NCBI GenBank assembly: GCA_028876065.1
Contig: JAGWTI010000012.1
Span: 1-52,260, forward strand
Direction: 5' to 3'
DNA from: Nitrospirota bacterium
GTDB taxonomy: Bacteria > Nitrospirota > Nitrospiria > Nitrospirales > Nitrospiraceae
Length of the DNA: 52,260 bases
Made by a program: the position numbers and the translations under genes. Below the pieces are notes generated by a model. It ran no database searches. It saw only the letters and a list, made by a program, of their open reading frames with translations, and was not told where the DNA came from. Positions 6,183 through 20,435 of the stretch are shown here, piece after piece. The stretch's first letter is position 1, and every line of letters starts with the position of its first letter.

Positions 6183-6221
6183 CAGTTTTGAGTTATCAGT
6201 TTCGAAACCAACTCAAAACTG
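6183..6221. repeat. 12-bp perfect inverted repeat over the E1 alpha stop codon
   Basis: CAGTTTTGAGTT (6183-6194) and AACTCAAAACTG (6210-6221) are perfect reverse complements, and the loop contains the palindrome GTTTCGAAAC (6199-6208). The E1 alpha stop codon (6213-6215) is within one arm. The other arm lies directly before the YtxH ribosome site. There is no T tract, so mRNA processing or stability is more likely than termination. Confidence 0.7.
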
Positions 6222-7190
6222 TTCACTCGTATAGACGTCTTTCGTCAGGTCTTCGACCGGTTCCCAGGGGCCCGCCTCCGCCTCGGCCACCGCCGCGGCG
6301 ATCTCCGCGGCAATGGCCGCCTCCATGGCGGCCAGGTCTTCGGAGGTCAGACACTTCCATTCCCGCAGTTGCCCTTCAAAGATCACGATCGGATCACGCT
6401 GCTTCCATTGCTCGACCTCCTCCTTTGTGCGATAGAGCTCCGCGTCATACATCGAATGGGCGCGGAACCGGTAGGTGCGATATTCCAGCAAGTACGGACC
6501 GTTTCCTCCGCGCACCGATTCGGCGGCCCGCTTGGTCGCCTTCTCGACGGCCAGCACATCCATGCCATCCACGGCCTCGGCCGCGACTCCCTCGGCTTGC
6601 GCCTTGAGCGTGACATCGGGCTGGGCCTGGTGCCGCGCCAGGGCGGTTCCCATGGCATAGCGGTTGTTCTCGCAGAGAAAGAGCACCGGTAACTTCCACA
6701 AAGCCGCCAGGTTGAGCGATTCGTGGAACTCGCCTTCCGCCACGGCCCCGTCTCCGAAGAAGCAGGCGGTCAGGCGTGTCTTGCCTTGCAGTTTGTCGGC
6801 CAAGGCCAGCCCGACCGCCACCGGCAACCCTCCTCCCACGATGGCCATGCCGCCGTAAAAGCGGCGCGAGGCATCGAAAAAGTGCATGGACCCCCCTCGG
6901 CCTCTGGCGCAGCCGTTGGCTTTGCCGTAGAGTTCCGCCATGAGGGTGCCGGCCGGCGTGCCGCGCAGGAGCGCCTGTCCATGTTCCCGATAGGTCGCCA
7001 CGAGGGCATCCTCCTGCGTGAACGCCTGCATCGCGCCCACCGCGACCGCCTCCTCGCCGATGTAGAGATGAAGGAAGCCGCGGATCTTGCCGAGGCTGTA
7101 GAGCTCCGCCGCTTTTTCTTCGAAGCGGCGGATGCGCAACATCTGCCGGAGCAGGTCCAGGGCCTTTGTGCGGTCAATCTCCAGACTCAT
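6213..7190 (-). CDS. pdhA: Pyruvate dehydrogenase E1 component, alpha subunit
   Basis: This subunit binds thiamine diphosphate: the motif starts with [12 protein letters not shown] and closes with [12 protein letters not shown] (about residues 145-180). [11 protein letters not shown] and the phosphorylation-loop-like [15 protein letters not shown] are further E1 alpha hallmarks. I chose ATG 7188-7190 because GGAG lies six bases upstream; a GTG six bases earlier is possible but would overlap that site. The length of 325 residues is typical of bacterial two-subunit E1. It follows acetyl-CoA synthetase in the same direction with an 84-base gap. Confidence 0.93.
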
Positions 7191-7274
7191 GGGCACTCCA
7201 TCGGAGATAAGAGCTCATGGCCATCAGCTTTCAGCCGTCACTCTCTCCGGAAGCTGAATGCTGACCGCTGAGCG
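7191..7274. repeat. Short intergenic element with CAGCTTTCAGC words
   Basis: The gap between acetyl-CoA synthetase and E1 alpha holds ATCAGCTTTCAGCCGTCA followed by AAGCTGAATGCTGACCGCTGAG, an imperfect inverted repeat. Related words (CAGCTTTCAGC, GCTGACGGC) recur near 37080, 47385-47412 and 50749. They look like a small REP-like family, possibly folding in mRNA. Confidence 0.35.
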
Positions 7275-9050
7275 CTATCCTTCCAACGTCGACGTGTCAC
7301 CTTCCGGCAACCCCAGCTCACGGGCCTTGAGCAGCCGCCGCATAATCTTCCCGCTGCGCGTCTTGGGAAGCGAGGGGAGAAACTCGATTTCCTTCGGCGC
7401 CACCACGGCGCCCAGCCTGGCCCGCGCGAACCCCATCAACTCCCGCTGCAGCTCACGGGTCGGTTCATACCCGTCCTTCAGCGAGACGAAGGCCTTGACC
7501 ACCTCCATCGCCACCGGGTCCGGCTTGCCGATCACGCCGGCTTCAGCGACCGCCTTGTGCTCGAGCAGGATGCTCTCGACCTCGAAGGGTCCGATCAAAT
7601 GGCCGGAGGTCTTGATCACATCGTCCGCGCGCCCGACGAACCAGAAATAGCCGTCCTTGTCCCGTTTGGCCAAATCGCCGGTCAGGTAGAACCCCCCCGC
7701 GAAGCACTTCTGGTATCGCTCCGCTTCGTTCCAGTAGGCCCGGAACATCGACGGCCAACCGGGCCGCAACGCCAGCTCGCCTTGGACCTCCGGCTCCCGG
7801 ACGACTTCGATCCCCCCTTCGGACGTCTTCCGCACGATCGCCGCCTCGATCCCCGGAAGCGGACGGCCCATGGAGCCGGGTCGGATGTCCATCGCCGCAT
7901 AGTTGGCGACCATGATCCCGCCCGTCTCGGTCTGCCACCAGTTGTCGTGAAACGGCCTCCCGAAGGCCTGCTGGCCCCAGACGACCGCTTCCGGGTTGAG
8001 CGGCTCGCCCACGCTGGCCAGGAACCGCAACGCGCGCAGGTCATGTTTGCGCACCGGCTCCAGCCCCGCTTTCATCATCATGCGGATGGCGGTCGGAGCC
8101 GTGTACCAGACCGAGACCCGCTGTTCCTCAAGAATGCGATACCAACGGTCCGCGTCGAACTCGGCTTCGTCCACGATGCTCGTGATGCCGTTGGTCAGGG
8201 GGGCAATGATCCCGTAGGAGGTGCCGGTCACCCAGCCAGGGTCGGCCGTGCACCAGAAGATGTCTTCCTTGTGGAAATCGAGGGCCAGCTTCCCGGTGAT
8301 GTGGTGAGCCACCACCGCCTGATGCACATGGACCGCGCCCTTGGGGGTGCCGGTCGTCCCGCTCGTGAAGTGCAGCAGCGCCATGTCTTCCGGATCGGTG
8401 GGCTGGATGGCGAATCGGTCGCTGGCTTCCGCCATCAGCCAGTAATAGTCCTTCGTCCCCGGGACGTTCGTCGGCTTGTGGGCGTCGCCGACCAGCAGGA
8501 CCTCCTGGAGGTGGGGGAGCGAGGCCCGCAGCGCCTCCACCTTCCGATGGTAGAGAGATTCCGTGGTCACAAGGACTTTCGCCTGGCCGATCCCCAGCCG
8601 CGCGCGGATGGGCTCCGGGCCGAACGCCGAGAAGAGCGGACAGAAGACGCTGCGGTTTTTGAGCGTGCCGAGGGCGGTAATGTAGAGCTCGGGGATGCGG
8701 CCCGCCAGGACGTAGACCCGGTCTCCTTTGGCCACCCCGAGGTGCTGCAGCACATTGGCAAACCGGTTGGTGAGCTCCTGCAAGCGGCCGTAGGTATAAT
8801 CCTGCACCTCGCCGTTCCTGCCGATCCACCGCAAGGCCAGGTGGTCCCGCAGCCGGCCCGTTGCATGGCGGTCGACCGCCTCGTACGCGATATTGAGCCC
8901 CTCTCCGCCCGGCAGCCCGTCGAGTTCCTGTCGCGCCCGCTCCCAGGAAAAGCTCGAACGGATGTCGCCGTAGTCGTGGAGGTGGGGCACCACCTCCCAA
9001 TCCCGTCGCGATTTGACGATCGGCTCCCAGGACACAGGTTCATCCCTCAC
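7275..9050 (-). CDS. acsA: Acetate-CoA ligase (acetyl-CoA synthetase)
   Basis: This 591-residue AMP-forming synthetase would activate acetate to acetyl-CoA through acetyl-AMP. Key motifs are the P-loop-like [19 protein letters not shown] (about 225-243), the acyl-pocket region WWQTETGG, the hinge [10 protein letters not shown], and the C-terminal catalytic lysine in [12 protein letters not shown]. Length and the short N-terminus match AcsA of Bacillus more than the longer E. coli Acs. The start is GTG at 9050. As the first gene of the dehydrogenase operon it gives a second route to the same product, so the operon as a whole supplies acetyl-CoA from acetate or pyruvate. Confidence 0.88.
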
Positions 9051-9370
9051 TCACCGCCTGTTTGTGCAAGGGATAGACCAAAGGAGGACCGGGCCATTTT
9101 CAGCCGGCGCAGGGGCAAATCCCCAACAAATCAGACCGATGGGCGCAATCGCCCTACAGGCCGTCCATCCACCTGTAGCATTATTCATCAAGCCCGGCTC
9201 CCGTTCCGTGGAGAATCGCGTCAGGGAAGGTCCCCGCGACCCTCTTCGCGGAGAAACAGGAAGTCAGGTGCGCGAAATCATGCCGCTTCCACGAACAGCG
9301 GGATGCAAGGGAACGCGCACAGTTCTTGCTTTTCTTCGATGTGATCGCCACGCGACGAGGAAGAGCGCAC
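9051..9370. promoter_or_regulatory. Divergent intergenic region, acetyl-CoA synthetase / cyclic diphosphoglycerate synthetase-like
   Basis: This 320-base spacer separates two divergent transcription units, so promoters for both should lie here. I see no gene. Two small hairpins are visible (GGGCGCAATCGCCC near 9136; CCGCG...CGCGG near 9235-9251), but no clear sigma-70 pair. Confidence 0.35.
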
Positions 9371-10705
9371 ATGGATCAGACCAAGGTGCTCATCATGGGG
9401 GCGGCCGGGAGGGATTTTCACAACTTTAACGTCGTCTTCCGCCAGAACCCGCACTACCGGGTGGTGGCCTTCACGGCGGCGCAAATTCCGAACATCGCCG
9501 GGCGGCTCTATCCGCCGACCTTGGCCGGACCCCTGTACCCGGAAGGGATTCCCATCCATGCCGAGGAGCAATTGGAATCCTTGATCGATGCACAGCAGGT
9601 GGAGCAGGTGGTCTTCGCCTACAGCGACGTCCCGCACGAGGCCGTGATGCACAAGGCTTCACGGGCCATGGCCAGGGGAGCGGACTTTCGGCTCCTCGGC
9701 CCGCGTGCGACGATGCTGGCCTCCGCCAAACCGGTGGTGTCGGTCTGCGCGGTCCGCACCGGCTGCGGCAAGAGTCCGGCGGCGCGCAAGATCGCCGCGA
9801 TCCTGCGGAGCGAAGGGCTGCGTGTGGCGGTCGTGCGCCACCCGATGCCTTACGGCGACTTGGCCAAACAGGCCGTTCAGCGCTTCGCCGACCTCGCCGA
9901 CCTCGCCCGAGCCGAATGCACGATCGAGGAAATGGAAGAGTATGAGCCGCACATCGTGAGCGGCGACCTCGTCTATGCCGGCGTGGATTACGAACGGATT
10001 CTTCGCCGGGCGGAAGCCGAGGCCGACGTGATCCTCTGGGATGGAGGGAACAACGATTGGTCTTTCTTTGCCTCAGACCTGGAGCTAGTTCTGGCTGACC
10101 CGCACCGGGCCGGGCATGAGCGGAGCTACTATCCGGGGGAGGTCAACTTGCGGCGGGCGCAGGTCATCGTCCTGACCAAGTTGGACAGCGCCGACCCCGA
10201 GCAGACCCGTTCCCTGCGCGAGAGCCTCAAGGCGTACAATCCCGCTGCCGTGGTGATCGAGTCTTCCATGCCGATCTCGCTCACCGATCCGGAAGCGGTC
10301 CAAGGCAAGCGCGTGCTGGTCGTGGAAGACGGGCCGACGCTCACCCACGGCGGCATGAGCTTCGGAGCCGGGGTGCTCGCGGCCAGAAAATGGGGCGCGC
10401 GCGCGCTGGTGGATCCCCGCCCCTGGGCCGTCGGTTCCATCCGCCGGACCTTCGCCGAGTACCCGCACATCGGCCCCTTGCTCCCGGCCATGGGCTATGG
10501 GCCCCAACAGATGTGCGAGCTCGAGGAGACGATCCGGGGAGTCGAGTGCGATGCGGTGTTGATCGCCACCCCCGTGGATCTCCGGCGCGTGATTCAGATC
10601 GTCCAGCCGACCTGCCGGGCCACGTACGAGCTGGAAGAGACGGGCCGGCCGACCCTCCGCGAGGTCGTGCGCGAATTCCTCGAGAAGGTCAAGGCCCATG
10701 CCTGA
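9371..10705 (+). CDS. 2,3-cyclic diphosphoglycerate synthetase-like P-loop protein
   Basis: The 444-residue protein opens with a Rossmann-like segment (KVLIMGAAGRDFHNFNVVFR) and has a P-loop at about 125-137 (AVRTGCGKSPAARK), then DVILWDGGNNDWSFF and a C-terminal half with VEDGPTLTHGGMSFGAG. This matches COG2403 GTPase-like proteins, whose characterised member in Methanothermus makes the compatible solute cyclic 2,3-diphosphoglycerate from 2,3-diphosphoglycerate and ATP. I set the start at ATG 9371, which has GAGGAAGAG upstream. It overlaps carbamate kinase by eight bases, so the two are coupled. The reaction in bacteria is unproven. Confidence 0.8.
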   Translation: MDQTKVLIMGAAGRDFHNFNVVFRQNPHYRVVAFTAAQIPNIAGRLYPPTLAGPLYPEGIPIHAEEQLESLIDAQQVEQVVFAYSDVPHEAVMHKASRAMARGADFRLLGPRATMLASAKPVVSVCAVRTGCGKSPAARKIAAILRSEGLRVAVVRHPMPYGDLAKQAVQRFADLADLARAECTIEEMEEYEPHIVSGDLVYAGVDYERILRRAEAEADVILWDGGNNDWSFFASDLELVLADPHRAGHERSYYPGEVNLRRAQVIVLTKLDSADPEQTRSLRESLKAYNPAAVVIESSMPISLTDPEAVQGKRVLVVEDGPTLTHGGMSFGAGVLAARKWGARALVDPRPWAVGSIRRTFAEYPHIGPLLPAMGYGPQQMCELEETIRGVECDAVLIATPVDLRRVIQIVQPTCRATYELEETGRPTLREVVREFLEKVKAHA

Positions 10706-11783
10706 GAGGGTGCTGGTCGCGCTCGGCGGCAACGCCCTGGTCAAAGCCGGGCAACGGGGTACGCTCGACGAGCAAACGGCCACCCTGCGATCGGCGTTGA
10801 CCGGAGTCGTCGAACTGATCCGGCGCGGACATCGGGTGGTCCTCACCCACGGGAACGGTCCGCAAGTCGGACAGATCCTGCTCCGCGCGGAGGCGGCGCG
10901 CGGGCAGACCTACGACCTGCCGCTGGACGTTTGCGTCGCGCAGTCTCAAGGGGAAACCGGCTACCTGATCCAGCAATGTCTGCAGAACCTCTTACGGCAA
11001 CGGGGGATCGGCGATCATCCGGCGGCGACCGTCATCACCAGGACCCTCGTCGATCCGGACGATCCGCGGATGGGGCATCCGACCAAGCCCGTCGGCCCTT
11101 TCTATACGCAGGAGCAAGCCGAGCGATGGCGGGCGACGGGATGGCGGATCGCCGAAGACGCGCATCGAGGCTATCGCCGGCTGGTGCCCTCGCCCCTCCC
11201 GATCGGGATCGTCGAAGCCTCGATCGTCCGCCGGCTCGTTGAGGCCGGCGTCATCGTCATCGCCGGCGGCGGCGGGGGCATTCCGGTCCGTCGGGAACGT
11301 GACGGCACGCTGGCCGGCGTCGAGGCCGTCGTGGACAAGGACTTGGCCTCGAGCCGCCTGGCCGTCGAGCTTGGGATAGATACGATTCTCGACCTGACCG
11401 CGGTGGAACAAGTCATGCTGGATTTCGGGACGACAAAGGAACGGCCCCTCGGCACCCTGACGGTGCAGGAAGCCAGGACCTATCTGGCCGAAGGCCATTT
11501 CGCGCCCGGCAGCATGGGGCCGAAGATCGAAGCGGCCATGTGGTTTCTGGAACGGGGCGGGCGCGAAATCATCATCACCAGCCCGGAGAAGGCCCTGGCG
11601 GCATTCGATGGATCAGCCGGGACGCACCTATACCCGGCCCCGGGGGGAAAGACCAGGAAACAGAGGCCCCCCTTCAAGAACCTGCCGAAACGTCAGGCCA
11701 AGAAATTCGCCGGACTCAAGCAGGCGAATGAACGGGAGCGGATCGTCGGCAAGAAGACCAAATCACGGTCCCCGGGCCGATGA
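10698..11783 (+). CDS. arcC: Carbamate kinase with basic C-terminal extension
   Basis: The amino-acid-kinase fold is complete by about residue 313: LVALGGNALVKAG at the start, THGNGPQVGQ, DVCVAQSQGETGYL, VIAGGGGGIPV and EAVVDKDLASSRLA, ending in AGTHLYPAP. The enzyme exchanges phosphate between carbamoyl phosphate and ADP. About 45 further residues, rich in Lys and Arg (GGKTRKQRPP to KKTKSRSPGR), are not part of the usual ~310-residue enzyme; the tail is low-complexity and could bind nucleic acid or a partner. No arginine deiminase or ornithine transcarbamoylase gene is nearby, so classical arginine fermentation is not supported here. Confidence 0.9.
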   Translation: MPERVLVALGGNALVKAGQRGTLDEQTATLRSALTGVVELIRRGHRVVLTHGNGPQVGQILLRAEAARGQTYDLPLDVCVAQSQGETGYLIQQCLQNLLRQRGIGDHPAATVITRTLVDPDDPRMGHPTKPVGPFYTQEQAERWRATGWRIAEDAHRGYRRLVPSPLPIGIVEASIVRRLVEAGVIVIAGGGGGIPVRRERDGTLAGVEAVVDKDLASSRLAVELGIDTILDLTAVEQVMLDFGTTKERPLGTLTVQEARTYLAEGHFAPGSMGPKIEAAMWFLERGGREIIITSPEKALAAFDGSAGTHLYPAPGGKTRKQRPPFKNLPKRQAKKFAGLKQANERERIVGKKTKSRSPGR

Positions 11784-11792
11784 GCGATTGCC

Positions 11793-13517
11793 ATGCCGGT
11801 CCATAACGCCGATATCGCCGCCAAGCTGGACGAGATCGCCGACTTACTGGAAATCGAGGACGCCAATCCCTTCCGCATCCGCGCCTACCGCAACGCGGCG
11901 CGCACCTTGCGCGACTTGAGTCGTGAGGTCACCAGCCTGCTGGCCCAAGGCGAGGACCTGACCGAGCTGCCCGGCATCGGCAAGGACCTGGCGGGCAAGA
12001 TCGAGGACATCGTCAAGACCGGCACCACCCCCATGCTCGACGAGCATCGGAGAGCCGTGCCGCCCACGCTTGTCGAGCTGCTCAAGATCCCGGGGCTCGG
12101 CCCCAAGCGGGTCAAGACGCTCAGCCGGACGCTCGGCATTCGGACGCTCAAGGACTTGCATCACGCCGCCCGCACCGGCCGCATCAGCGCCCTGACAGGA
12201 TTCGGCGAGAAGCTGGAACGGCAGATTCTGCACGAGCTGGAGGCGCGCGCCGGCGCCGAGGGCCGGTTCAAGCTTGCCACTGCGGCCCAGTATGCCGAGG
12301 CGCTGGTGGCCTACCTCAAGGCCTCGCCGGGAGTCGGCCGGGTCGTGGCGGCCGGCAGCTATCGCCGGGCCAGAGAGACGATCGGCGATCTGGACATCCT
12401 GGCGACCGCCCGCGCCGACAGCCCGGTGATGGACCGGTTCGTCTCCTACGACGAAGTGGAAGCCGTGCTGGCCCATGGCGGCACCAAGGCCACCGTCCGT
12501 CTCGCCTGCAAACTGCAAGTGGACTTGCGGGTGGTCGGCGAAGAGAGCTACGGAGCCGCGCTCCAATATTTCACGGGGAGCAAAGCGCACAATATCGTGC
12601 TGCGCCAGCTGGCGCAGCAACGGGGGCTCAAGGTCAACGAATACGGGGTCTTCAAGGAAGAGCGGCGCGTGGCGGGACAGACGGAGGAATCCGTCTATGC
12701 CGCGGTGGGGTTGCCCTGGATTCCGCCGGAGCTGCGGGAAAATCGCGGCGAGTTCGACGCGGCGCGGGAGGGTCGGCTCCCGCAGCTTGTGCAGCTCGGC
12801 GATCTACGAGGCGACCTGCATGCCCACACCAACGCGACGGACGGCCGAAACAACCTCACGGAGATGGCCCGGACGGCCCGAGCGCGCGGCTTCGAATACC
12901 TGGCGATTTGCGACCATTCTCAACGGCTCGCCATGACGCACGGCCTGGACGCCAAACGGTTGCTGGCCCAACTGGACGAGATCGATCGGCTGAACGAGAC
13001 CAAACCGGGCATCACCCTGCTCAAGGGGATCGAGGTGGACATTCTGGAGGACGGCCGACTGGACCTGCCGGACGGCGTGCTCGGCCGGCTGGACCTGGTC
13101 GTGGCCGCCGTGCACAGTCACTTCAACCTGTCGCGCGAGCGGCAGACCGAGCGGATCCTGCGGGCTATGGACCGGCCGCATTTCACGATCCTGGCCCATC
13201 CGAGCGGGCGCCTGATTCAAGAACGGGAACCCTATGACGTGGACCTGCCGCGCCTGATCCGCCAGGCGCGCGAGCGGCAATGTTTTCTGGAAGTCAACGC
13301 GCATCCGGAGCGGCTGGACCTGGCTGATGCCTATTGCCGGATGGCGAAAGAAGAGGGAGTGCTGGTCAGCATCAACTCCGACGCCCACAGCGTGCTCGAC
13401 TTCGAGAACCTTCGGTTCGGCGTCGGACAGGCCAGGCGCGGTTGGCTGGAACCGACCGACGTGCTGAACAGCAGACCGCTGAGCGCCTTGCGCCCGCTGC
13501 TTCAGCGAACGATGTAA
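11793..13517 (+). CDS. polX: DNA polymerase X with C-terminal PHP exonuclease domain
   Basis: The 574-residue protein carries an N-terminal helix-hairpin-helix 8-kDa domain (GIGKDLAGKIEDIV; IPGLGPKRVKTL), a family X palm with GSYRRARETIGDLDILA (two catalytic Asp near residue 199), and a PHP domain from about residue 339 (GDLRGDLHAHTNATDGRN, YLAICDHSQ, GIEVDILEDG, AAVHSHF, ILAHPSG, SINSDAH). This is the standard bacterial PolX layout for gap-filling repair with 3'-5' exonuclease activity. It starts nine bases after the carbamate kinase stop. Confidence 0.93.
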   Translation: MPVHNADIAAKLDEIADLLEIEDANPFRIRAYRNAARTLRDLSREVTSLLAQGEDLTELPGIGKDLAGKIEDIVKTGTTPMLDEHRRAVPPTLVELLKIPGLGPKRVKTLSRTLGIRTLKDLHHAARTGRISALTGFGEKLERQILHELEARAGAEGRFKLATAAQYAEALVAYLKASPGVGRVVAAGSYRRARETIGDLDILATARADSPVMDRFVSYDEVEAVLAHGGTKATVRLACKLQVDLRVVGEESYGAALQYFTGSKAHNIVLRQLAQQRGLKVNEYGVFKEERRVAGQTEESVYAAVGLPWIPPELRENRGEFDAAREGRLPQLVQLGDLRGDLHAHTNATDGRNNLTEMARTARARGFEYLAICDHSQRLAMTHGLDAKRLLAQLDEIDRLNETKPGITLLKGIEVDILEDGRLDLPDGVLGRLDLVVAAVHSHFNLSRERQTERILRAMDRPHFTILAHPSGRLIQEREPYDVDLPRLIRQARERQCFLEVNAHPERLDLADAYCRMAKEEGVLVSINSDAHSVLDFENLRFGVGQARRGWLEPTDVLNSRPLSALRPLLQRTM

Positions 13518-13908: not shown

Positions 13909-14364
13909 ATGACCGAACCACCCGGCAGTGATGAGACCGTCAGGTGGGAGGCTTACCCGTCCTGGGGTCAGTTTGCCTGGCTCTATTTCATGAGTCTGTT
14001 GACCGCGTTGCGCGGCTTGTTGTTGCTCAAGTTCGACATCCCGGGGTGGGGCCTGTGGCTGGGAGGAGCCGTCGCGCTGCTGGTATGCGCCGCCTGTTTG
14101 CGCCGGTGGGCCCGATATAGCATCACCAGCAGCCGCGTGACGGTGACCAACGGCTACACCGGCCGCGTGATCGAGACCGTGGCCATACCACAGATCGAGG
14201 AGCTGACGATCCGACAAGGGCCGATGGCTCAGTGGATGGGCATCGGCACGCTCGTGATCCGAACCGGCGGCGGACAGATCCGGCTGCGCGGGATCAACGA
14301 TCCGGAGGTGGTGAGAAACCGACTCGAAGCCATGAGGCCGGCCGGCGCCGCCCCGGCCGACTAG
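13909..14364 (+). CDS. Bacterial PH-domain membrane protein (bPH2, YdbS/YdbT-like)
   Basis: The 151-residue protein has two adjacent hydrophobic segments (about 20-40 and 45-65) followed by YSITSSRVTVTNGYTGRVI, then IPQIEELTIRQG and LVIRTGGGQIRLRGINDPE. That is the bPH2 layout: a membrane hairpin and a beta-rich PH-like domain on the cytoplasmic side. The start is the ATG preceded by CCGGAG, not a longer upstream frame. Function in the family is unclear (membrane stress, lipid or protein contact). It precedes two trypsin-like protease genes. Confidence 0.75.
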   Translation: MTEPPGSDETVRWEAYPSWGQFAWLYFMSLLTALRGLLLLKFDIPGWGLWLGGAVALLVCAACLRRWARYSITSSRVTVTNGYTGRVIETVAIPQIEELTIRQGPMAQWMGIGTLVIRTGGGQIRLRGINDPEVVRNRLEAMRPAGAAPAD

Positions 14365-14383
14365 CGCACCTCATCCTCATCGA

Positions 14384-15268
14384 ATGGAGCCTATGAAGCT
14401 GACCGCGTGGATCGATCCCTGGCGTGACGCCACCGTGGCCATCGGCCACATTCACTCGTTTCCGGTCACGGGGCGGGCGGGGAAACTTTCCCGTCGCGAC
14501 TTTTTTGTGGTGGTCGGCACCGGCGTCATGTTCTGGCTGAAGGACGACCCGACCGGGACTCCCTGGCTGGTGACGGCCAAACACGTCTTCCTGGACCAGG
14601 CGGAGGGCTGGGACCCCGCCCACCTGCAAATTCGCTTCTCCTGGCTGGACGATCAACCGGTGCACGAACACTTCGGGGTCCGGATCACCCTCAAGCAACG
14701 GGGCCGGCGACGATGGCTGGCTCATCCGGACCCGGCCGTTGACTTGGCCTGTCTCCCGCTGGCCATCCCGCCGGACCAAGTCGGAAGGGCCAGGGTGCCG
14801 ACGGTGACGACCGACGACTTTGCCGCGGCCAAGGACATCTACGAGGGAGCCCCCGTGGTCGTGCTGGGCTACCCCGGCGCGGTCGGCCCGCATTTTTGGA
14901 CGAGAGCCATCGTCCGCCAGGGCATCATCTCCTGGGTGTCCCCGACTAAACCGCAATCCACCCCCTTCTTGATCGACAGCAACGTGTTTCCGGGCAACAG
15001 CGGCGGGCCGGTGTTCAAGCTGCCGGCGGGAACGGACCGTCACGGGCACTTCACGGCGGGCGGAAAAGTGGCCCTGTTGGGCATCGTGACCCAGGCCAGG
15101 ATTCAAAAGCTTCCGCTCACGGTGGGCGGGAAAGAGCTCGATGTGCAACTCAAGGGCAGGAAGAAACCGGAAACCCCCTTCGTGCCGAGCTTCATCGGCC
15201 TCGGCGTCATCGAGCCGGCCCTGCGGATCAAACAACTCCTGGCGGCCGCCGCGTCGCTGAAGCGATGA
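14384..15268 (+). CDS. Trypsin-like serine protease (S1 family)
   Basis: This 294-residue protein has a chymotrypsin-fold core: TAKHVFLD supplies the catalytic His (about residue 68), PAVDLACLPL a candidate catalytic Asp, and FPGNSGGPVF the nucleophilic Ser. No PDZ domain or clear signal peptide is visible, so unlike DegP/HtrA it may act in the cytoplasm. It starts 19 bases after the PH-domain gene and is probably co-transcribed with it. The substrate is unknown. Confidence 0.82.
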   Translation: MEPMKLTAWIDPWRDATVAIGHIHSFPVTGRAGKLSRRDFFVVVGTGVMFWLKDDPTGTPWLVTAKHVFLDQAEGWDPAHLQIRFSWLDDQPVHEHFGVRITLKQRGRRRWLAHPDPAVDLACLPLAIPPDQVGRARVPTVTTDDFAAAKDIYEGAPVVVLGYPGAVGPHFWTRAIVRQGIISWVSPTKPQSTPFLIDSNVFPGNSGGPVFKLPAGTDRHGHFTAGGKVALLGIVTQARIQKLPLTVGGKELDVQLKGRKKPETPFVPSFIGLGVIEPALRIKQLLAAAASLKR

Positions 15269-15342
15269 CGAAGCCGGGACCGGCCGGCGGCCGAGCGCAC
15301 AAGACAGGCCCCTATCCCAGACCCTCGTCAAGGAGGACGATC

Positions 15343-15597
15343 ATGGCACTCCCCAAGCATCTCGACGAAGCTGTGGCCCGGCTCAAAGGGGCCTCGTTGC
15401 AGATCGAGCGCGTGCGCGCCAAGCCGGCCACGCTCGACAACCAGCACGCCTGGCTCGCGGCGCTCACGGATTTCTCCATGGCCTTGTCCGATATCCAGGA
15501 ATACAACAACGAGTCGATTCACGAAAAGCTGCATGAGATCGCCGCGCGGGCGGGCCTGAGACAATTCCCGGGGACCGAGCCCAAACGGACGTCCTAG
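15343..15597 (+). CDS. Small helical protein of unknown function
   Basis: The 84-residue protein (MALPKHLDEAVARLKGA...) is predicted to be almost entirely alpha-helical and soluble, with a conserved-looking LAALTDFSMALSDIQEYNNE. An AAGGAGG nine bases upstream fixes the start. It lies between two protease genes in the same direction, so it could be a substrate, inhibitor or adaptor, but nothing in the sequence decides this. No family recognised. Confidence 0.7.
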   Translation: MALPKHLDEAVARLKGASLQIERVRAKPATLDNQHAWLAALTDFSMALSDIQEYNNESIHEKLHEIAARAGLRQFPGTEPKRTS

Positions 15598-15678
15598 CCA
15601 TATTGACAAGGCCTGAGCCTCCGTATGCCGTGACGGCCGCGCTTCCGGCCTTGCTTGACGCCCCCCCGCCTTGGTGCT

Positions 15679-17361
15679 ATGGGTGACGGCGCCATGCGGA
15701 TGATGCTGTGCCACCTCACCGGCAGCCTGCGCGGCCTGACCCAGTCGTTCGACGCCGAGACGATCCGTGTCGGTGTCGGGGAGTCCTGTCACGTTTCGTT
15801 CGACCCGGCGAAAGACCCGACCGTCTGCCCCCTCCACGCGGAGATTGCGGTCGAAGACCATGCCCCCCTGATTCGGGACCGCAGCGGGAAGAACGCCCTC
15901 CTCATCAACGGCCAGCGAAGCTTCGAGTCCGAACTGAAAGACGGAGACCTCCTGCAGTTCGGCGAGGGCGGCCCGCTGGTGCGGTTTCGCGTCGCGGCCG
16001 ACGAGGGGCAGGCGAGCAAGCCCTGGCGGGCCATCGTCACCGACTCCCGCGACATCGTCGTGCGCACGCCCCATCCCCGCTACCTCTCCCCGTTCTATCT
16101 GGCGCGCCACCTGCTCGCCGATATCGGACGCTACGGGTCCCCGGCGATGAAGGTCGCCGCCGCCGCGTCCGTCTTGGCGACGGTCCTGCTCATCACCTTG
16201 CTGGGCATCGTCGCCTACCGCCAGCACCTGGCGGCCGACACCGCCCAGCGGCGGATCGCCGACCTCGTCAGCCAGCTGGAAGCCGGACACCTCACCCGCA
16301 CGGAGATGAGCCGGCGCATCGAGCAGGAACGGCAGAGCCTGGCGGATCTCCGCCGGCAACAGGAGGAGTTGGCCGCCAGGCTGACCGCCGCGCTCCAAGA
16401 GCAGCAGGCGGCCCATCGGTCCCAGCAGGAGCTCCAGGCGATCCGCCGCCAATTGAGCGCGCTCGAAAGCCGGCAGCGGTTCGCCGAAGACCTCGTCGCG
16501 CGGTTTGGGGGAAGCGTCGGGTTGCTGCAAGGCGGCTACGGGTTCGTGGAGCACGGGACCGGCCGGCCGCTCCGCTATCAGGGCTTCGATCCACTCGGCC
16601 ATCCCTTTGCGGATCGAGAGGGCAATCCCTTGGTGACGGTCGAAGGCGAGAGCCCTCCCATCGTCATCTTCTATGCCGGCAGCGGATTCCTGGTGGACAA
16701 GGCGGGAACGATCCTGACGAACCGTCATCTCGTTCGGATGTGGGACCATTACGAGCCGGCGCGAGAGATCATGGCGGCCGGGTTCGAACCGCGCTTGTCC
16801 ATGCTCCGCATCTTCTTTCCCGACACGGGAGACGCCTTTCCTCTCGAGGTGCTCGGCGTCTCCGACGGCAGCGACGTGGCCGTCCTCCGGACCGGCCGGG
16901 CGCCGACCGGGTTGGCCCCGCTTCGCTTGGCTCCGGCGGACGACGCTCCGCGCGTGGGAGAACCGCTCGTCGCGCTCAGCTACCCGGGCACCTTCGACAG
17001 CCTGATGGGACGACTGGCCAAACCGGTGAGCGACGGGATCCTGGAGGAGGCGGGGGGCGACCCGGTCAAACTGGCCGATGCGCTCGCCAGGCGGAAACTG
17101 ATCCGCCCCCTGGCCACGCAAGGGCACGTGTCCGACCTGTCGCCGGACACCCTCACCTTCGAAGCCGGCGCCGGCGGGGGAAGCAGCGGGGGACCGGTCC
17201 TGGACCAAGCCGGCCGCGTGATCGCGATCAACCATGCGGCGATACGCAAGGTCGGCGGGCTCAACGTGGGGCTGCGGACCAAGCCGGCCTGGGAACTGCT
17301 GAGAACGCTGCACGTCGCGGTCGAATCCGAGGCGGACGACAAGACCCGCGTTCGTCGCTGA
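15679..17361 (+). CDS. FHA - transmembrane - coiled coil - trypsin-like protease
   Basis: From ATG 15679 the protein has 560 residues in four blocks. Residues about 5-105 form an FHA-like phosphothreonine-binding domain (IRVGVGESCHVSF, GDLLQFGEGG). One transmembrane helix spans about 157-179. A Gln/Arg-rich coiled coil follows (about 185-275). The C-terminal half is an S1 protease with His in TILTNRHLVRMW, Asp in SDGSDVAVLRTG and Ser in GAGGGSSGGPVLD. It would place a phosphosignal sensor in the cytoplasm and a protease outside the inner membrane. A later ATG at 15694 is an alternative start. Confidence 0.78.
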   Translation: MGDGAMRMMLCHLTGSLRGLTQSFDAETIRVGVGESCHVSFDPAKDPTVCPLHAEIAVEDHAPLIRDRSGKNALLINGQRSFESELKDGDLLQFGEGGPLVRFRVAADEGQASKPWRAIVTDSRDIVVRTPHPRYLSPFYLARHLLADIGRYGSPAMKVAAAASVLATVLLITLLGIVAYRQHLAADTAQRRIADLVSQLEAGHLTRTEMSRRIEQERQSLADLRRQQEELAARLTAALQEQQAAHRSQQELQAIRRQLSALESRQRFAEDLVARFGGSVGLLQGGYGFVEHGTGRPLRYQGFDPLGHPFADREGNPLVTVEGESPPIVIFYAGSGFLVDKAGTILTNRHLVRMWDHYEPAREIMAAGFEPRLSMLRIFFPDTGDAFPLEVLGVSDGSDVAVLRTGRAPTGLAPLRLAPADDAPRVGEPLVALSYPGTFDSLMGRLAKPVSDGILEEAGGDPVKLADALARRKLIRPLATQGHVSDLSPDTLTFEAGAGGGSSGGPVLDQAGRVIAINHAAIRKVGGLNVGLRTKPAWELLRTLHVAVESEADDKTRVRR

Positions 17362-17377
17362 GCGCGAAGAGGACTGG

Positions 17378-18250
17378 ATGCGCGTACTATTGGCCGTTGA
17401 CGCCTCGCCGGACTCTCGGAACGCCGCCGGCATGATCAAGCACCTGGCCGTACCGCCCGATCTCCACGTGCTCAACGTGGTGGACGTGGAGGCGCTGAAG
17501 CATGCCTACGATTCGCCCGAGATGCCGGCCGGCTACTATGAGACCTATCGGCAGGAAGTCTCGGAGGTGGCCGAGCGGGTGCTCCACGAGATGAAGGCCG
17601 AGCTGGCTCCCCACGCCAGCCACATCCGCCTGATCGCCGACACGGGCGACGCGGCGGAGAGCATCATCCAGACGGCGGAGGAGGCCCGGGCCGGCCTCAT
17701 CATCCTGGGGCAGCGCGGGATGACGGCCACGCCGACCTTTCTCCTCGGAGGCGTCTCCCAAAAAGTGGCGACCTACGCCCCCTGTTCGGTCTTGATCGTG
17801 AAGGAGCCGCAACCGACGCTGGACCGCATCCTCCTGGCCTTGGACGGCTCGGACGAATCGACGAAGGCCGTTCAGTTTCTGGCTCGCGCGCCCTTCAAAG
17901 GTCCGATGCGGGTCACGGCGGTCCTGGTCTGGCCGGGCCATCATGCGGGGCTGCTCGGACCGGCCAAGGGCCTGCGCGACATGAGGTCCGCCGCGAAGAC
18001 GGCGCGCGCACAGGGGGAAGCCCTCCTCCGCAGCACGGTGGCGCCGTTGTCGGGGAAGCCCTACGAGGTGGAAACGGAATGGCTGCAAGGAGACCCGGCC
18101 TTTTCGCTCATCGAGGCGGCGGCGCGGCATCAGGCACAGATGATCGTCCTCGGCGCACGGGGGATGAAAGCCGTCAAACGGTTCCTGCTCGGGAGTGTGT
18201 CCCAGAAAGTCCTCGTGCACGCCCCTTGCTCGGTCCTGATCGTCCGGTGA
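17378..18250 (+). CDS. Universal stress protein, two UspA domains
   Basis: The 290-residue protein has two tandem UspA folds. Each ends with the ATP-binding pattern: ILGQRGMTATPTFLLGGVS in the first and VLGARGMKAVKRFLLGSVS in the second, followed by APCSVLIV in both. This is the usual long Usp. It begins 16 bases after the FHA-protease stop and probably shares its transcript, linking that protease to a stress response. Confidence 0.92.
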   Translation: MRVLLAVDASPDSRNAAGMIKHLAVPPDLHVLNVVDVEALKHAYDSPEMPAGYYETYRQEVSEVAERVLHEMKAELAPHASHIRLIADTGDAAESIIQTAEEARAGLIILGQRGMTATPTFLLGGVSQKVATYAPCSVLIVKEPQPTLDRILLALDGSDESTKAVQFLARAPFKGPMRVTAVLVWPGHHAGLLGPAKGLRDMRSAAKTARAQGEALLRSTVAPLSGKPYEVETEWLQGDPAFSLIEAAARHQAQMIVLGARGMKAVKRFLLGSVSQKVLVHAPCSVLIVR

Positions 18251-18719
18251 CGGTGAAGTGAAAGATAAACCGGGGAGCAAGAACAAGAAACAGACTGAGC
18301 GGAGGGTGGATCGCGAGAGCTCCTGCCATGGTGGGGATCTCGGAGGGGTTTTAGGCTTCCCGAACGGCCGGGCCTGCACACCACCCCTACACCTAACCCC
18401 CTGCTCCTCCAGTGTTCCTCTCTCCAACACCTCCGCTCAGTTATTAGGTAACCTCCCTTCCAAGGCGATCAAGAGAGGAGGGGAGCCTTGAGTCATTCGG
18501 CGACAGTAACGGAGCCGGCCTCTGTTGCGGATGGCTACAGCCAAGATGGGGAACCATCTCTCTTCGCTCTTGTTGCCATCAGGTCCTGCCAGGGACCATG
18601 TGTATCCGGTGGAAAGGAAGGGGTGTTTCGTGAACCACCAACCCTGGGCCATTTCGGCACCACTCTTGCCCTTCAAGAAGAGCACCAATCACCGTTCTAT
18701 TCCGCGTGGAGGCAGTAGG
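18251..18719. other. Gene-free spacer before the caspase-ankyrin gene
   Basis: About 470 bases. Frames on the plus strand that run into the downstream gene lack a ribosome site and domain-like content. A purine-rich region with GAGAGGAGGGGAG and an upstream CTCCCTTCC could pair weakly near 18447-18484. I identify no promoter with confidence. Confidence 0.3.
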
Positions 18720-20435
18720 GTGCGACAAATCCGCTGGATCGGCGTCCTTGGGCTCCCGTTTCTGCTGTTCGCGGCCGGCTGCGCCACGATTTACACCGCC
18801 GCCCGTGACGGCGACCTTCCGACGGTGCAGACCTTGGTGACCCAAGGCGCGGACGTCAATGCCGTGAATGAGAACGGCAGCACGGCCCTCCATGTCGCGG
18901 CGGATCGGGGGCGCACGGAAGTCGTCCGGTTTCTGCTGAACCACGGAGCCTCGGTCAACATCAAGGCCAAGTCCGGCTCGACGCCGCTCTTGCTGGCGGC
19001 GCAATCCGGCTCCCTGGAGACGGTCCGGATCCTGCTGGACCATGGCGCCGAGGTCAACGTAGAAACCGGTGAAGGCAAGGGCCACATCAATTGGACGCCT
19101 CTGACAGTGGCCGTGGAAGCCAATTCTCTTGAATTGGTACAGCTCCTGTTGAGCAAAGGGGCCGACCCGAATCTCCCGGACGACCCGACCATCGCTCCAC
19201 TCGGGCATGCGGCAAGGAAAAACAATCGTGAGATGGCCAGCCTCCTCTTGGAACACAAAGCCCGTGCCGGCAAAGAGTATGCCTTGCGCATGATGGCGCT
19301 GCACGGCGACGTGGAAACCGTCCGCTTGCTCTTGGACCGGGGCGCCGATGTGAACGACCCAAGGGTCACGAACTGGACGGCCTTGAAAGAAGCAGCTTGG
19401 GGAAATGATGCAGGAAAACAACTCCGCGTCATCCAGCTCCTGCTCGAACGAGGAGCCGACCCGACCGCGGTAGACGATCAAGGCTGGACGGCTGCGCAAT
19501 GGGCGGAATATCGGGGCAAGCCCGCGCTGGCCAAGGTACTCAGAGAGGCGGAAGCGAGGGCGGCCAAGGCCGGTCCCGCAGCACCAACCACGGCGACTCC
19601 GCCCGTTCCGGCCAGCGACGTGGACCGCCTGCCGACCGCCAAAGCGACACGAAAAAAGTACGCCTATGCCGTCGTCATCGGCATCGAGCAGTATCGCGAG
19701 AAACTGCCCAGGGCGGATTTCGCCGCGCGGGACGCCACGCTGATGGGCGAATATCTGACGAAGGTCCTCGGATACCCGGAAGAGAACGTGGTGGTCCAAG
19801 TCAACGAACGCGCGACGGGCAAGGACCTGGAAAAGTATTTCGAAAACTGGCTGCCGAATAATGTCGAGAAGGATGGCTCGGTGTTCGTCTACTACTCAGG
19901 CCACGGAGCCCCGAATCCCAAGACGAGCGACGCCTACCTGGTGCCCTACGACGGCGATCCCACGTTCATCGAGTCGACGGGCTATCCCTTGAAGCGGCTC
20001 TATGCCGCCCTGGAGAAACTACCCGCGAAGGACATCACGGTGGTCTTGGACTCCTGTTTCTCCGGAGCCGGCGGACGGTCGGTCCTCGCCAAGGGCGCGA
20101 GGCCCATGGTCCTGTCCGTCGAGAATACCGTTCTGGCCGGCGGCAAGACCGTTGTCCTTGCCGCGAGCTCCGGCGCCCAGATTTCAAGCACCTTCGAAGA
20201 GCAGGGCCACGGGCTGCTGACCTATTTCTTCCTGAAGGGCCTGCAAGGCGAGGCAGACCTGAACCATGATGGCACGATCGACCTGACCGAGTTGTTCGAA
20301 TATGTGAAGCCCAACGTGCAGAAGATCGCCCGGAAGCAGTACAACAACGAACAGCAGCCGCAGTTGCTGGCGAGCCCGGAGCTGCTCAGAAAGGGCGGAG
20401 GGCGGCTGATCGAGGGGCCGACGCCGCCCCGATAG
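18720..20435 (+). CDS. Ankyrin-repeat, caspase-like (C14) lipoprotein
   Basis: I start at GTG 18720, where GGAGG lies seven bases upstream and a lipoprotein signal begins (VRQIRWIGVLGLPFLLFAAG, then Cys): a 571-residue protein anchored by acylated Cys. Residues about 25-285 hold about seven ankyrin repeats (GADVNAVNENGSTALHVAAD and similar). The caspase p20-like domain starts near 315 (YAYAVVIGIEQY); the catalytic dyad is His395 in YYSGHG and Cys446 in LDSCFSG. An EF-hand-like loop DLNHDGTIDLTE follows near 515. It is likely periplasmic or on the outer membrane. The substrate is unknown. Confidence 0.85.
   Translation: MRQIRWIGVLGLPFLLFAAGCATIYTAARDGDLPTVQTLVTQGADVNAVNENGSTALHVAADRGRTEVVRFLLNHGASVNIKAKSGSTPLLLAAQSGSLETVRILLDHGAEVNVETGEGKGHINWTPLTVAVEANSLELVQLLLSKGADPNLPDDPTIAPLGHAARKNNREMASLLLEHKARAGKEYALRMMALHGDVETVRLLLDRGADVNDPRVTNWTALKEAAWGNDAGKQLRVIQLLLERGADPTAVDDQGWTAAQWAEYRGKPALAKVLREAEARAAKAGPAAPTTATPPVPASDVDRLPTAKATRKKYAYAVVIGIEQYREKLPRADFAARDATLMGEYLTKVLGYPEENVVVQVNERATGKDLEKYFENWLPNNVEKDGSVFVYYSGHGAPNPKTSDAYLVPYDGDPTFIESTGYPLKRLYAALEKLPAKDITVVLDSCFSGAGGRSVLAKGARPMVLSVENTVLAGGKTVVLAASSGAQISSTFEEQGHGLLTYFFLKGLQGEADLNHDGTIDLTELFEYVKPNVQKIARKQYNNEQQPQLLASPELLRKGGGRLIEGPTPPR

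Follow-up and report, generated by a model that had tools for sequence, protein, structure and literature searches.

In the stretch of DNA analysed here (the window), which comprises 52,260 nucleotides of contig JAGWTI010000012.1 from a Nitrospirota bacterium of the family Nitrospiraceae (assembly GCA_028876065.1, genome of 3.4 Mb; contig C132 in the comparison set), a gene for a membrane-anchored protease with an FHA-fold domain is followed directly by a gene for a tandem universal stress protein (Usp). These two genes alone form the conserved unit of the cluster in which they lie. Judged by its pocket residues, the FHA domain is a degenerate pseudo-FHA, while the catalytic triad of the protease is retained. 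The two core genes are as follows:

15694-17361, + strand: pseudo-FHA, transmembrane (TM) helix, coiled coil and HtrA-like protease in one chain of 555 aa (FHA 32.5 bits, Trypsin_2 71.8 bits)
17378-18250, + strand: tandem Usp of 290 aa, beginning after a gap of 16 bp (Usp 173.8 bits)

Pairing of the protease and Usp genes

Matches to the FHA-protease were found in 18 of 80 related genomes at E <= 1e-10, and 10 of these 18 carry close orthologues, counting the one in the window (53-100% identity). The Usp, searched at E <= 1e-50, was present in 10 of the 80, and these are the same 10 genomes. Since these are related genomes and linked genes, this matching distribution reflects co-inheritance as a unit and not 10 independent events. 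Across the phylum, 14 of 395 genomes matched the protease profile, all of one family, and this added one close orthologue (G394). Wherever downstream sequence is visible, the Usp gene comes next, in the same orientation (11/11 orthologous loci), with gaps of 16, 15, 9, 9, -4, 18, 23, 24, -4, 18 and 9 bp; one more copy, the twelfth (G028:C239), is partial, cut off by the edge of its contig, and stands outside this count. The 11 paired loci represent seven genera, with 52-90% identity for the proteases and 64-93% for the Usps, and the pair is missing from other genera of the same family. A metagenome-assembled genome of Nitrospira sp. carries a protease 79% identical to that of the window.

The gene directly upstream of the pair is the gene of an 84-aa protein in the window, a trypsin gene in G003 and G011, a PH gene in G001, RtcA in G007, G014 and G394, and others elsewhere. 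The variable upstream genes indicate that the pair is not merely part of one frozen block. The lasting link between the FHA-protease and Usp genes, which the preliminary description of this DNA had included in a larger system, is supported by adjacency and by distribution.

Seven distant homologues (G028:C194, G040, G268, G024, G015, G016 and G375) share 30-39% identity and the same domain order. In G015 (L037 5239-9378), a small unnamed open reading frame and a gene for V-type ATPase subunit I come after the gene of the distant pseudo-FHA protease, on its strand. Further partial matches in G044, G023, G025 and G061 were left unclassed; the match in G061, a genome from another family of the order, covers the FHA part only.

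Outside the phylum, the search covered close relatives, plasmids and phages. No match to the FHA-protease was found in the phage records, and the plasmid search gave a sole, distant relative, a full-length protease (28%) on a Ruegeria replicon among genes for Usp, Hsp20 and a cation:proton antiporter. Its FHA domain is weaker still (17.1 bits, under the cut-off). The cluster (L148 3815-17314) contains Usp, Hsp20, the pseudo-FHA protease, a Na/Pi symporter, the cation:proton antiporter, a phasin and another Usp, and it fits a component of stress islands beyond Nitrospirota. The annotated start of the Ruegeria protease seems too late, as the match extends about 400 bp upstream.

Architecture of the protease, its FHA domain and the Usp

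The 555-aa protein is arranged as follows:

residues ~8-100: pseudo-FHA domain
residues ~154-175: TM helix
residues ~176-274: long coiled coil
residues ~275-540: HtrA-like S1 protease domain, without PDZ

A single strong hydrophobic stretch (156-174) lies between the FHA and protease parts. An alignment of 15 FHA-protease sequences (A1) is the basis of the counts of pocket residues, triad and charge and of the AlphaFold2 (AF2) model. The catalytic triad H345/D394/S498 is retained in 15 of 15 homologues. In the model, with a mean pLDDT (predicted local distance difference test) of 79, the N-terminal part forms a beta sandwich and the hydrophobic stretch is part of a long helix; there are other long helices besides, and a chymotrypsin-like domain. 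By Foldseek and VIA-align, residues ~250-542 group with HtrA1, DegQ and DegS at Z ~22, the best structural match being HtrA1 (Z 22.8, 188 residues, root-mean-square deviation 3.3); the VIA-align rows span model residues 249-542 only, with the FHA part outside. The HtrA-like chymotrypsin fold and the His-Asp-Ser triad of HtrA/Deg (S1C) proteases are both found in the modelled domain. The C-terminal PDZ domain of that group is missing: no PDZ match was obtained with Pfam, and the chain ends after the protease domain, while an HtrA in G010, which served as control for PDZ detection, shows PDZ_2. The NCBIfam cut-offs are missed by far (31.1 against 416.2 bits for the Do family, 22.1 against 422.95 for DegS). 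On the strength of the model, the protein can be described as an HtrA/DegS-like protease without PDZ. It resembles the membrane-anchored DegS/HtrA proteases in having a TM anchor and then an HtrA-fold domain with the H-D-S triad, but differs from them in the absence of PDZ and in its large, probably cytoplasmic FHA-fold domain and long coiled coil.

The net charge is greater on the FHA side of the TM helix in 14 of 15 sequences, with one tie, which suggests that the N-terminus lies inside; because the difference is small, this topology is put forward as probable. The earlier placement of the FHA domain across a membrane from a protease is supported, a single TM helix separating the cytoplasmic FHA fold from the HtrA-like domain, its orientation with the caution just given.

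The FHA fold itself is recognised by Pfam (32.5 bits against a cut-off of 20.7), and the FHA model matches 14 of the 15 A1 members at E up to 0.001. However, the pocket of a phosphothreonine (pThr)-reading FHA domain, with its Gly-Arg, Ser-x-x-His and Asn elements, is not there. The position of the pThr-binding Arg holds Val, Ile, Ser or Thr in all 15 sequences and Arg in none. At the pocket Ser position, Cys occurs nine times, Ala and Ser twice each, and Gln and Asp once each, so that Ser is kept in two and absent in 13. The Asn of the NGT motif is found in three of the 15, and only the pocket His is largely retained (13/15). Among the Usp-paired proteins that were aligned, Cys replaces the pocket Ser in nine of 10. 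A canonical FHA domain with GR, S-x-x-H and NGT is present elsewhere in the genome of the window, beside a kinase match and what we take, from the sequence, to be a PP2C phosphatase, and it served as control; the motif names applied to it are likewise our reading.

The Usp contains two Usp stretches by Pfam and is of the tandem type. In the 10 aligned sequences both domains carry G-x2-G-x9-G, followed by Ser in domain 2 and by Gly in domain 1; the motif of nucleotide-binding Usps is G-x2-G-x9-G-[ST]. Domain 2 keeps this motif type, from which ATP binding is predicted. Among its closest relatives of solved structure are ATP-binding Usps and the tandem chains 2jax/3cis of M. tuberculosis, the latter being weak sequence matches.

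Possible function of the pair

The combination of FHA domain, protease and Usp was not found described in our literature searches. As an explanation that is quite possible and is offered tentatively, the Usp may dock on the cytoplasmic pseudo-FHA and tune the envelope protease, so that the functional unit would consist of a membrane-anchored PDZ-less HtrA-type protease with its own tandem Usp. The FHA fold would no longer read pThr and would serve as a protein-docking platform, for which the co-encoded Usp is the likeliest partner. Upon a change in its nucleotide-bound or stress-induced state, the Usp would bind or leave the FHA domain, and docking might change how the TM/coiled-coil oligomer is packed and in this way alter protease activity in the envelope. 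The control would run inside-out, the reverse of DegS. The docking, the N-in topology, the sign of regulation and the substrate are what we infer here.

The closest functional precedent, by analogy, is a pair from M. tuberculosis. One report describes how FHA I of Rv1747 is bound by the tandem Usp Rv2623 (PDB 3cis), for the most part via pThr237, and repression of Rv1747 by Rv2623 is proposed there (PMC5549992). Both cases combine a tandem Usp with a membrane protein bearing an FHA domain on its cytoplasmic side; what is seen in the window is gene pairing. Unlike Rv1747, an ABC transporter, the effector here is a protease, its pocket is lost, and the two genes lie side by side; the phospho step of the precedent cannot be copied here.

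Several points weigh against the docking explanation. The case for binding is indirect, and genes linked in related genomes can be co-inherited without contact between their products. The seven distant homologues have no such Usp in the fetched flanks, some of which are short, and therefore the protease can work without it. Between Rv2623 and Rv1747, binding needs largely pThr237 and an intact FHA pocket, a pocket that is lost here. Furthermore, the charge bias around the TM helix is modest, and the fold search covered the protease part, with the FHA part outside.

Possible as well, if somewhat more doubtful, is co-regulation only, in which stress would lead to joint production of protease and Usp without contact between them, and the pseudo-FHA would have a structural role, as a domain for oligomerisation or ring formation that clusters the protease. 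The inner-ring proteins PrgH, YscD and MxiG of the type III secretion system are membrane proteins with a cytoplasmic FHA-fold domain whose pThr pocket is poorly conserved, whereas the extracytoplasmic part in the window is a protease and not a set of ring-building domains. The YscD-type Pfam model matches 13 of the 15 A1 members at E up to 0.001, which favours this explanation, while the window protein itself scores 23.4 with Yop-YscD_cpl, below the Pfam cut-off of 33.2 that would place it among the PrgH/YscD proteins. In the available part of a study on PrgH-type cytoplasmic FHA domains, the pThr pocket is reported to be poorly conserved, its mutation left secretion unaffected, and no pThr use was apparent for the PrgH/YscD type (PMC3635987); such domains occur in rings without evident pThr use in that source. 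The distant homologues, which have the same pseudo-FHA and no Usp, point the same way, as does the Ruegeria relative, whose Usp genes are near and not adjacent. Against co-regulation only, one Usp orthologue is strictly paired with one protease subfamily at gaps below 25 bp in 11 of 11 loci while the other flanks change.

More speculative, and on balance unlikely, is the docking of the Usp as an undescribed inside-out device, in which a nucleotide-sensing tandem Usp would bind a former pThr-reading FHA domain without phosphate and switch an HtrA-type protease across the membrane, with the old pocket (Cys for Ser) as a new docking or redox surface.

The preliminary description had the FHA domain read pThr, so that phosphorylation inside the cell would control proteolysis outside; the writer would be a Hanks-type kinase. 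The Pfam score above cut-off and three Hanks-kinase matches above cut-off in the genome agree with this idea. It fails because the pocket Arg is lost in all 15 sequences and the Ser in 13 while the triad is kept, and because the canonical FHA domain, the control in the same genome, adjoins the PP2C gene and a kinase match at another locus. Reading of pThr was rejected on this motif loss and is very improbable.

Usps are found everywhere, yet the output is known for few of them; a Usp gene tied to a single membrane protease offers a defined, testable target. If docking by the Usp were true, the pair would exemplify an FHA fold that has given up phospho-reading and persists as a docking domain. 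It would also mean that envelope proteolysis is set from inside the cell, and not by periplasmic damage as in DegS.

Neighbouring genes and the gene island

The preliminary description had listed five genes on one strand; all five were confirmed at their places on the + strand, and each is a real gene with length-matched homologues in other genomes. Pfam matches above curated cut-offs in the cluster are bPH_2, Trypsin_2 (twice), FHA and Usp. The neighbours of the core pair are as follows:

13909-14364, + strand: bacterial PH-domain (bPH_2) protein with two TM helices, 151 aa (49.7 bits)
14384-15268, + strand: trypsin-like protease, 294 aa (Trypsin_2 53.8 bits)
15343-15597, + strand: 84-aa two-helix protein (alignment and predicted helical hairpin; no Pfam match above cut-off)
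18525-20435, + strand: downstream, caspase (C14) with ankyrin repeats and an N-terminus resembling that of lipoproteins (matches to Ank_2 and Peptidase_C14 exceed the cut-off)

That the five genes make up a single operon for membrane signalling and proteolysis, in which the 84-aa protein would be a substrate or an inhibitor, is hardly credible, since the shared strand and small gaps in the window, and the joint occurrence of PH, trypsin and FHA protease in G003 as well, are set against an arrangement not kept outside the genus. A PH gene lies upstream near the FHA-protease in 3 of the 11 orthologous loci, all of the window's genus, a trypsin gene directly upstream in two (one gene intervenes in the window), and the 84-aa gene adjoins it in the window only (1/11). 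The operon was rejected on these neighbourhood data. The preliminary description had staked itself on co-occurrence in other genomes and on phospho-binding residues in the FHA segment, and both points went partly against it because neighbourhoods vary and pocket residues are lost: the protease-Usp pair and the pocket His were kept, while the three upstream genes, the Arg and most of the Ser and Asn residues were not. A promoter and terminator scan gave no more than chance expectation.

As the upstream genes vary and recur elsewhere without the FHA protease, the described cluster is a local assembly of separately inherited pieces, and the PH, trypsin and 84-aa proteins belong individually to a gene island for stress and central metabolism. 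The island also holds genes for acyl-CoA synthetase, carbamate kinase, PolX, malic enzyme, RtcA and LigD-N. In window positions 6213-13517 and related loci it recurs within this family with shifting order, including genes for an E1 dehydrogenase, a THUMP protein and a radical SAM protein; one island protein, without a family match, presumably resembles cyclic 2,3-diphosphoglycerate synthetase.

The 84-aa family has an invariant NNES-HEKLH core in an alignment of 10 sequences (A2) and is predicted to be a plain two-helix hairpin (pLDDT 82); neither Pfam nor NCBIfam gave it a name, and the plasmid search gave no relative. Its gene occurs in 24 of 395 phylum genomes, seven of which also match the FHA-protease profile. 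In 24 loci, viewed with flanks of about 1.5 kb, a THUMP match adjoins the gene in five (L115, L116, L120, L123 and L061), the first four with LigD-N (LigD 3'-phosphoesterase) as well; LigD-N alone is beside it in two (L124, and L125 with a 31-residue match), and a PH match lies within the flank in five, the window included. The suggestion that it is a dedicated inhibitor of the proteases was rejected as unlikely, given this limited co-presence and these neighbours, usually far from the proteases.

In the trypsin-like protease no TM helix, signal peptide or hydrophobic window was seen, which makes a cytoplasmic location likely. Its triad motifs are retained in nine aligned homologues, and in G032, G039 and G017 homologues lie in an island of this kind from which the FHA protease is absent; the plasmid search gave four weak partial matches only. 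PADLOC models match both the trypsin (PDC-S45, a phage-defence candidate model, E 5.7e-23) and the caspase. The flanks of the cluster are metabolic and stress genes, weighing against an anti-phage role, which the trypsin may nevertheless have. The available part of a 2021 eLife article on trypsin and caspase conflict systems does not describe the FHA-protease architecture (PMC8195603). The true start of the caspase gene, which lies just after the Usp gene, is uncertain. The caspase is also noted at L024 8941-12542; G001 carries two tandem copies and the fetched locus of G003 none.
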